A DNA stretch of 64,000 nucleotides, from the NCBI RefSeq assembly GCF_002356555.2, contig NZ_AP017372.2, forward strand, positions 1,776,501 through 1,840,500, read 5' to 3'. A program made the position numbers and the translations under genes. Of the stretch, positions 51,029 through 53,968 are shown one piece after another. Numbering within the stretch: position 1 is the stretch's first letter; each line of letters begins with the position of its first letter. The notes beneath the pieces are model-generated. The model searched no databases and was not told the DNA's origin. It saw nothing but the letters and a program-made list of their open reading frames with translations. The stretch is from Halorhodospira halochloris. Lineage in GTDB: Bacteria > Pseudomonadota > Gammaproteobacteria > Nitrococcales > Halorhodospiraceae.

Positions 51029-52222
51029 ATGGCGTCACGCACCCACTATCATTGTCTAGGCTATAGCTCCCCGGGGTTTTGGCTAAGTAGCGCTGCCTGT
51101 GCCACCCTGGCCCTCGCCGGTGCCGGCACAGCGCTCTATCTCATGCTGCTCGGCCACCACGTCACAGGTATGGGGACCCAATTAGTCTGGGGGATACCCC
51201 ACGTCTTCGCCCTGACCCTGATCCTCACCGGTGCCGGCGCCCTAGCCATTGCCGCTAGCTCCCAGGTCACTAAGCTCAGCAGCGGCGCAGCGCTGCAGCC
51301 GCTTACCCGGCTCGGCGCCATAGTCGCCAGCGCCTTACTAATCGGCGGCTTGGCTGTGTTGGTATTTGACCTTGGCCGACCGCTGCAACTGCCAGTAACC
51401 TTCCAGCACTTTAATTTTAGCTCCAGCTTCGCGCGCAATATCCTCTTCTATCTCGGCTTCTTTGCCATAGTCGGGCTGCTGCTGTGGACTCAGTTCGATC
51501 CGGCGATGCGCCGCTTCTCGCGCGCTGCCGGCTGGTTGGCAATTATTTGGCCACTCTTGCTCGCTGCTAATGTCGGCTCCATATTCGCCCTTCTCAGTGC
51601 TCACGAGGCCTATCGCGGCGGCTTAATGATCCCGCTGCTATTTAGCGCCGGGCTAACTTACGGCAGTGCCGCCTTGCTTCTAGCCTGGCTCGCGGTCCAC
51701 TACCACTCACCTAACGCCGCTAGTCAGCCGGTGAGCGAGCGCTTGAGCTCTCTGCTCGCGCTGTTTATCGGCGCCCATGCCTCGATACTCATCGTCCACG
51801 TGCTCAGCATGTTCTACATGCCGGCTTATCGTGACGCAGCCAGTTTCCTCCTCATCGACGGTGGCATCTACCCGGTCATCTTCTGGCTTGGGCAGGTGCT
51901 CACCGGTATGATCATCCCCTCTCTCCTCCTGCTGTCGGGGGTGGCCCGCAGGCATGCCGGGTTGCTCGCCATAACGGCGGGTCTGGTGCTGCTTGGTGGG
52001 CTAGCCCATCTTTTCGTGATGGTCGTCGGCGCCCAAGCGCACCCATTGTCGATATTTCCCGGCTATGAGGTGACAGGCGCCGTCTTCGATGGGGAGGCTT
52101 TCTATTATTCACCTAGTCTATGGGAGTGGTTATTGGGGATTAGCGGTGCCGCAATAGCCACACTGATCGTCCTCATCGGGCTACGCATACTCCCGCTTAC
52201 CCCTTACTATAGGGGGCCATGA
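51029..52222 (+). CDS. dsrP: DsrP NrfD-family membrane subunit
   Basis: DsrP (397 residues) is a polytopic membrane protein of the NrfD/PsrC type with about ten helices. It exchanges electrons between quinone and DsrO/DsrJ. Hydrophobic segments are evident throughout, with conserved-looking LVFDLGRPLQLP and VLSMFYMP motifs. Its stop overlaps dsrN (ATGA). Confidence 0.93.
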   Translation: MASRTHYHCLGYSSPGFWLSSAACATLALAGAGTALYLMLLGHHVTGMGTQLVWGIPHVFALTLILTGAGALAIAASSQVTKLSSGAALQPLTRLGAIVASALLIGGLAVLVFDLGRPLQLPVTFQHFNFSSSFARNILFYLGFFAIVGLLLWTQFDPAMRRFSRAAGWLAIIWPLLLAANVGSIFALLSAHEAYRGGLMIPLLFSAGLTYGSAALLLAWLAVHYHSPNAASQPVSERLSSLLALFIGAHASILIVHVLSMFYMPAYRDAASFLLIDGGIYPVIFWLGQVLTGMIIPSLLLLSGVARRHAGLLAITAGLVLLGGLAHLFVMVVGAQAHPLSIFPGYEVTGAVFDGEAFYYSPSLWEWLLGISGAAIATLIVLIGLRILPLTPYYRGP

Positions 52223-53796
52223 GCCGAATATATATCTCAGCCCTACATAAATCGTCGGGCAAAACAACACTCGCCATCGGCATCACCGCGGCGCTCAGCG
52301 CTCGCGATGTGACCGTGCAACCCTATAAGCGCGGCCCCGACTATATCGACCCGGGCTGGCTCAGCTTGGCGGCAGGAAGGCCTTGCCATAATCTCGATTT
52401 CCATACCCAGAGCACGGCGGAACTGCTGAGCAGTGTTGCTGAGACCGCCGCGCAGTTCGCCCTGATTGAGGGCAATAAGGGGCTCCACGACGGCACTGAT
52501 GCACAGGGCAAAGACAGTAACGCCGCCCTCGCTGCCTTGTTGCAGACGCCGGTTGTGCTGGTAGTTGACTGTCGCGGCATGACCCGCGGCATCGCCCCGA
52601 CCTTGCTCGGCCATAGCCAGTTTGATCCGCGCATCCAGGTCTCCGGGGTAATCCTCAATCGGGTTGCCGGCAGTCGCCACGAGCGCAAACTCCGGCAAGC
52701 TGTGGAGCAATACACCGACATCAGCGTCCTCGGGGCTATCCCCGATCAAAGCGAATTAGCCATCGCCGCCCCCTACCTCGGCCTGGTGCCGGCCCCGGAG
52801 CAACGGGAGCAAGCGCAGCGGACAATTCGCACCATCGCCGCGGTAACCGCTGAACATGTCGATCTCGAGCAGACTCTTTCTATAGGACGCCTTGAAAAAC
52901 TCACTCGATCTGACTGGTTGCCCGGGTGTGAAGGACGCCGTGAATCCATCCCTGGAGGCTTCACAGCGCCATCCCTGGCGCCAAGACCTTCACCCCGGGA
53001 CAACCAGTCAGACCGGTGGAATCCTGCAAGTTGCCCCATAGGCCGCAAACAAGAGCCGAGCCGCGCGCCATCCGTGGAGTCACACCCTCCACCGCGGCAC
53101 TATGAGCAGCCCTCGCAGGCTGAGGCTACTCTGCGCTTGGGTGTGGCTTACGATCAGGCCTTCAACTTCTATTACCCCGGCGATTTGCAGGCACTGCAAG
53201 CGGCGGGGGCCGAGTTGGTCTGGATCGATATGCTCAGCGCGCCCGAGTTACCACCGCAGCTCGACGGTCTACTCATCGGCGGCGGCTTCCCCGAGCGTCA
53301 CGCCGCCGCGCTGGCTGCTAATGAATCGATGCGGGCTTCGGTATCCGCTGCGGCGCTAGTCGGACTACCGATCTACGCCGAATGCGGCGGCCTTATGTAC
53401 CTCTGCCAGCACTTGACCATCGGGGACGCCACCTATCCCATGGCCGGGCTATTCCCGCTGACTATCGCCATGAACCGTAAACCGCAGGGGCACGGTTATG
53501 TGCGCCTGCAAGTCAATCCATCTGCGCCGTGGTCGCCCGCAGCGCCGGGACAAAACGAACTGCCGGCTCACGAGTTCCACTACTCGGCGCTAGCCGCCGC
53601 AGCTCCCCGCGATGCTGAGTCGACCTTTACCTATGCCTACCAGATACAAGGCGGAAGCGGACTCGGCAACGGTCATGACGGTCTGGTAAAGGCCAACACC
53701 ATGGCCAGTTATGCCCATTTGCGGCACACTCAGGCTAGCCCGTGGGCGGATAATTTCATCGCTTTCCTCAGGCGAGCCTCTAAAACTACCCCCTGA
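52219..53796 (+). CDS. dsrN: DsrN, sirohaem amidase / cobyrinate a,c-diamide synthase family, with in-frame foldback insertion
   Basis: DsrN is thought to amidate sirohaem for DsrAB with glutamine and ATP. The N-terminal P-loop domain (ISALHKSSGKTTLAIGI, KRGPDYIDPGW, IEGNKGLHDG) ends near residue 225. The C-terminal glutamine amidotransferase domain starts near 300 (LGVAYDQAFNFYYPGDLQAL) and holds the nucleophile in YAECGGLMYL. The linker between them contains a complete foldback element (52910-53011, exactly 34 codons, residues about 231-264) read without a stop. The last codons (SKTTP) and the stop also lie in an element arm. At 525 residues it is longer than usual for the family. Confidence 0.93.
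   Translation: MSRIYISALHKSSGKTTLAIGITAALSARDVTVQPYKRGPDYIDPGWLSLAAGRPCHNLDFHTQSTAELLSSVAETAAQFALIEGNKGLHDGTDAQGKDSNAALAALLQTPVVLVVDCRGMTRGIAPTLLGHSQFDPRIQVSGVILNRVAGSRHERKLRQAVEQYTDISVLGAIPDQSELAIAAPYLGLVPAPEQREQAQRTIRTIAAVTAEHVDLEQTLSIGRLEKLTRSDWLPGCEGRRESIPGGFTAPSLAPRPSPRDNQSDRWNPASCPIGRKQEPSRAPSVESHPPPRHYEQPSQAEATLRLGVAYDQAFNFYYPGDLQALQAAGAELVWIDMLSAPELPPQLDGLLIGGGFPERHAAALAANESMRASVSAAALVGLPIYAECGGLMYLCQHLTIGDATYPMAGLFPLTIAMNRKPQGHGYVRLQVNPSAPWSPAAPGQNELPAHEFHYSALAAAAPRDAESTFTYAYQIQGGSGLGNGHDGLVKANTMASYAHLRHTQASPWADNFIAFLRRASKTTP
52910..53011 (+). repeat. foldback element, copy 15 (in frame inside dsrN)
   Basis: Arms 52910-52934 (CTGACTGGTTGCCCGGG...) and 52987-53011 are complementary over 25 bp with about three mismatches and flank a forward core. 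The arms are shorter than in other copies. The length is 102 bp, a multiple of three, and the reading frame stays open. The encoded residues include GCEGRRESIPGGFTAPSLAP. Confidence 0.96.
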
Positions 53797-53968
53797 GGGA
53801 ACCTCTAAAACTTCGCCGGCGCCACCATCCGCCCCGGTGTGGAGGACGCCGTGAATCCATCCCTGGAGGCTTCATGGCGCTATCCCTGGCGCCAAGACCT
53901 CCACACCGGGGCGGATGGTGGCGCCGGCGAAGTTTTAGAGGCCACCCTGAGCCATTTGGCTGCCCCGA
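53776..53968 (+). repeat. old foldback arm split by copy 16
   Basis: GCCTCTAAAACTACCCCCTGAG (from 53776) and, after copy 16, CCCTGAGCCATTTGGCTGCCCC (from 53945) together reproduce one typical left arm. CCCTGAG occurs at both junctions (53791-53797 and 53945-53951). The rest of the older element is missing. The dsrN stop codon lies within this arm. Confidence 0.75.
53798..53944 (+). repeat. foldback element, copy 16 (perfect 44-bp arms, nested)
   Basis: Arms 53802-53845 and 53898-53941 are perfectly complementary over 44 bp (outer CCTCTAAAACTTCGCCGG, inner GGTGTGGAGG). The core is forward. It lies inside an older element arm and is bordered by a CCCTGAG direct repeat, so it looks recently inserted. 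Confidence 0.96.

Follow-up and report, generated by a model that had tools for sequence, protein, structure and literature searches.

Nested insertion of a palindromic MITE-type element with a 4-bp target-site duplication in Halorhodospira halochloris

A palindromic repeat designated copy 16 interrupts the arm of an older repeat in the 64,000-nucleotide stretch of the Halorhodospira halochloris genome analysed here (the window), and the question raised by this locus is whether the arrangement records a transposition event with target-site duplication, as a preliminary description had proposed. This study revealed that the proposal was correct in substance. Copy 16 spans positions 53797-53946 of the forward strand (150 bp, with ends GGG...CCC), its boundaries being taken from the fixed duplication register of 45 intact copies, and copies that are 98-99% identical to it occur elsewhere in the genome. 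Its left arm (53802-53845, 44 nt) and its right arm (53898-53941, 44 nt), separated by 52 nt, are 100% complementary, so that the perfect arms first described are indeed present. The conserved core (53844-53899, 56 nt) comprises two hairpins, the loops of which are of the CATCCCTGG type; in this copy, the second loop reads CTATCCCTGG. As a single strand, copy 16 has a folding energy of -123 kcal/mol with a z-score of -16, and either strand forms a very stable fold.

The older arm is split into a left part, CGAGCCTCTAAAACTACCCCCTGA (53772-53796), and a right part, CTGAGCCATTTGGCTGCCCC (53947-53966). The heptamer CCCTGAG was found, as described, at both junctions (53791-53797 and 53945-53951). 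When the left flank GCGAGCCTCTAAAACTACCCCCTGAG and the right flank CCATTTGGCTGCCCCG are joined, they form one continuous arm; with copy 16 removed and one CCCTGAG kept, the sequence reads GCGAGCCTCTAAAACTACCCCCTGAGCCATTTGGCTGCCCCG and aligns through the junction with the arms of other copies (38 nt at 92%, E 5e-10, with the copy at L092). This agrees with the earlier view that copy 16 splits an older arm and that its removal restores a typical one. The older element at this site is an orphan arm, followed by neither a core nor a second arm. Before the insertion, the site would have read ...CTACCCCCTGAGCCATTTGG..., containing CTGA once. No strain was seen to carry the site without the insertion, the nearest genomes aligning in the upstream gene at only approximately 70% identity and not in the intergenic part. 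Nevertheless, paralogous empty sites are available within the genome: the flanks of approximately eight copies, copy 16 included, join into older element sequence, although two weaker cases among them rest on 73-86% matches. The nested insertion proves that the palindrome family still moved at a time when earlier copies were already decayed, and it fixes the ends of the family, the length of the duplication and the target.

The flanks of the copies with recognisable termini were surveyed for duplications, a check suggested at the outset. An exact 4-bp direct repeat in a single fixed register flanks 31 of the 45 copies with intact termini, against 1.3 expected from re-paired flanks (2000 shuffles, with a maximum of 6). 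Most intact copies therefore carry a duplication, contrary to the scenario, raised earlier as an objection, in which most perfect copies lack one; approximately one third are without an exact duplication in the register. Among 102 copies with recognisable termini, 50 show the exact 4-bp duplication (1.5 expected), and direct repeats of at least 6 bp flank 38 (approximately 5 on random re-pairing of right flanks). In the 45 intact copies, matching does not extend beyond four variable positions in one register, which C precedes and G follows. The duplicated 4-mers differ among copies (TTAA, TATT, CATA, AGAT, CTGA and others), and many of them sit in non-repeat DNA. Given this variation among copies, the duplicated bases are not derived from shared arm sequence only, which had been the second objection. 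The true duplication is 4 bp, within a target C-YWWR-G, and at copy 16 it consists of CTGA at 53793-53796 and again, within the right part of the older arm, at 53947-53950 (forward strand). A length of 7 bp is apparent at copy 16 because the preferred target flanks are identical to the element ends (GGG...CCC). The family-wide pattern thus upholds transposition with target-site duplication, but not the length originally read from this site.

The constant short duplication, together with the terminal inverted repeats, indicates that a DDE transposase, acting in trans, makes a staggered cut. We consider it very likely that copy 16 is a gene-less, high-copy MITE and that such a trans-supplied enzyme inserted it into an older relative's arm. 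It is highly improbable that it is instead a REP/REPIN-like repeat moved by a REP-associated Y1 tyrosine transposase via single-stranded hairpins. REP/REPIN sequences with their RAYT transposases are likewise palindromic, intergenic and high-copy, the class-wide occurrence of the core is a further resemblance, the present family exceeds 100 copies, and Y1 transposase genes are present in this genome. However, Y1/HUH transposition leaves no target duplication, whereas 31 of the 45 intact copies carry one, and REP/RAYT mobility was rejected for the present movement on this ground. Moreover, the two top-scoring Y1 hits are IS200-type proteins of 152 aa, one of them in the published ISHahl1 range. 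A Y1 transposase at 1197746-1198111 lies within the interval covered by the published CALIN and ISHahl1 figure of this species (PMC7923331). Even less credible is that the short duplication arose by coincidence from arm sequence and the apparent nesting from recombination between the arms of two copies: CCCTGAG is also present as arm sequence in other copies, but the register analysis strongly disfavours this reading, as the duplicated 4-mers vary and often lie outside repeats, and recombination between arms would not flank a whole new element with a fixed-register repeat.

With regard to the class of the transposed element, the genome (2,834,560 bp in a single contig) yielded at least 140 distinct copies, a lower bound since copies were counted from stretches around copies. 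It contains hundreds of candidate sites and 105 matches to the exact core pattern, and 102 copies have CCTCTAAA/TTTAGAGG ends with at most 2 mismatches. Copy 16, at 150 bp, is well within the size of MITEs (less than approximately 600 bp) and contains no transposase gene; the family has shared terminal inverted repeats (ends GGGNNCCTCTAAA...TTTAGAGGNNCCC), a constant 4-bp target duplication and a high copy number. The palindrome family is accordingly a MITE-type non-autonomous transposon and represents a new family within a known kind of element. It resembles the bacterial MITEs Chunjie, Nezha, QMITE, ERIC and the Correia elements in being short, gene-less, bounded by terminal inverted repeats and a target duplication, high-copy and mostly intergenic, with occasional in-frame genic copies. 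Unlike these, nearly the whole element is a palindrome with 44-bp arms that vary in pairs, and its two-hairpin core is conserved class-wide. The Rickettsia palindromic elements are also palindromes of approximately 150 bp inserted in frame in genes, as is the case here at 52880-53041, but the present copies are mostly intergenic and the sequences are unrelated as far as known. An Rfam search over the window gave no match at the gathering score, a local scan returned only chance-level scores, and literature searches by sequence for the repeat found nothing relevant.

The enzyme mobilising this MITE is probably IS5-like. A 4-bp duplication and a YTAR-like target are traits of the IS5 group, the ends of which start with GG as they do here. 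An IS5-like transposase, as suggested by the resemblance of terminus, duplication length and target, would make the staggered 4-bp cut. In a member of the order, an IS5-like element has the terminal inverted repeat GGAGACTCTGAACTATTC and TTAG at its borders. The present family differs from the IS5 group in lacking a transposase and in its target consensus, which is looser (YWWR within C...G rather than YTAR), while the duplication length agrees. An autonomous IS5-family partner would carry the ends GGGAACCTCTAAAAAC. In the present genome, a decayed IS5-family transposase fragment with several stops (L202:1500-2003; NF033581) adjoins the end GGGAGCCTCTATAAACTG; an end similar to that of the palindrome family lies on one side, with 4 mismatches in 19, and the left end is not clear. 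The PF01609 (DDE_Tnp_1) loci that were typed belong to IS1634 and IS1380, in addition to this fragment, and the IS1634 and IS1380 loci show no ends like those of the palindrome family. The profiles PF13586 and PF05598 gave no hits in the genome, and neither these nor the examined PF01609 hits included an intact IS5-group transposase. Since the Y1, DDE_Tnp_1, PF13586 and PF05598 searches found no intact element with the family ends, the partner has been lost, has decayed or went unrecognised.

The arms of this MITE family show an unusual pattern of change. We compared 58 copies of the same arm type, scoring changes from the consensus in both arms and leaving out an A-run indel. Symmetric changes numbered 54 (32 distinct, 23 private to one copy), against 74 one-sided changes; at the one-sided rate, 0.19 symmetric changes would be expected, and the observed excess is therefore approximately 300-fold. 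The symmetric changes include transversions, insertions and double changes; for instance, both arms of L102 have AA in place of TT, and both arms of L029 have GC in place of TA. Positions 36-48, which make up the inner arm, hold 1 of the 54 symmetric but 18 of the 74 one-sided changes (Fisher p 0.0003, or p 0.008 when distinct changes are counted). In the full set of 130 good copies, positions 14-37 of the arms vary, yet they are paired in 70-86% of cases, compared with 38-71% expected. As paired changes are this far above chance and nearly absent from the inner arm, we infer hairpin-templated copying, either template switching or arm-to-arm gene conversion, which would keep the arms complementary. 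In template switching, the inner arm would act as the primer, and priming there predicts the contrast between inner and outer arm, whereas selection for pairing does not. Sequence constraint on the inner arm may contribute to this contrast, and some of the symmetric changes may derive from source copies through shared ancestry or be kept by selection for pairing.

It is unlikely that the paired changes reflect selection acting on a transcribed RNA, or on competence for transposition, rather than templated copying. The stability of the fold on both strands and the conservation of the core over the whole class are in line with such selection. Nevertheless, single intermediates should then far outnumber paired changes, whereas individual young copies have paired transversions and indels of their own and the inner arm has one-sided but almost no paired changes; in addition, copies in tandem gene contexts show no orientation bias (22 sense, 27 antisense). 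Templated copying of this type has a precedent in the quasipalindrome correction by template switching already known from studies in E. coli (PMC7202029, PMC8794818), in which mutations, multi-base changes included, likewise make inverted arms match. The present pattern differs in spanning many copies of one natural mobile family, and it is the mark of template switching in a mobile family that is unusual. The maintenance of matching between inverted repeats has so far been studied mostly via reporter constructs and ancestral reconstruction, and the near-identical copies with paired changes offer a natural data set on this matter.

The 56-nt core is common to relatives with different arms; its stems change in step, while the loops stay ATCCCT. 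A covariance model (E 1e-4 or better) detected it in 48 of 276 sampled Gammaproteobacteria, often with at least 20 copies per positive genome and with 150 scored in one genome. In other Gammaproteobacteria (L215-L273), it is flanked by other, unrelated palindromic arms, and the core showed no family match in Rfam. A class-wide core with changing arms constitutes a repeat family without an Rfam match, the role of which is testable. On the minus strand, the family consensus of the loops at 53844-53899 is C-AGGGAU-G, a sequence similar to the consensus bound by CsrA/Rsm; copy 16 departs from it in one of its two loops (AGGGATAG). The rough, ORF-based count of orientations to genes, which adds 33 convergent and 21 divergent copies to the sense and antisense ones given above, reveals no bias, and an oriented 3' UTR or CsrA-type RNA element therefore stays only an idea. 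As a tentative and rather doubtful synthesis, lineage-specific mobile palindromes might share the class-wide core while their arms, rewritten pairwise by hairpin-templated synthesis, drift freely but remain paired, and the minus-strand loops would fit a CsrA/Rsm-type RNA-binding protein or a DNA-hairpin-binding protein as what conserves the core. With its paired arm evolution and its class-wide core, this family is a variant of more than routine interest. In genome G270 (L246, L254, L260, L261 and L270), related repeats have extra hairpin modules (GCCAAGGATGGCGTGAATGCAGATTTTGCAGGAGCAAAAATCTGC) in or beside the core, which suggests modular nesting.

The gene upstream of copy 16 (52219-53796, forward strand) encodes a CbiA/CobQ-type amidotransferase with relatives in Halorhodospira and Ectothiorhodospiraceae, and is probably dsrN, judging from its Fer4, NrfD and pyridine-nucleotide oxidoreductase neighbours. 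Copy 16 follows the stop codon of this gene and no gene is broken; as the TGA stop lies within the duplicated CTGA, the insertion leaves the protein unchanged. The stop is located in the older arm, from which the last residues of the protein, ASKTTP, are also derived (53779-53796), so that an earlier insertion supplied the end of the gene. A second, older element copy (52880-53041, forward strand) lies in frame inside the same gene and adds approximately 50 residues in an inter-domain linker, which the relatives L136-L139 do not have.
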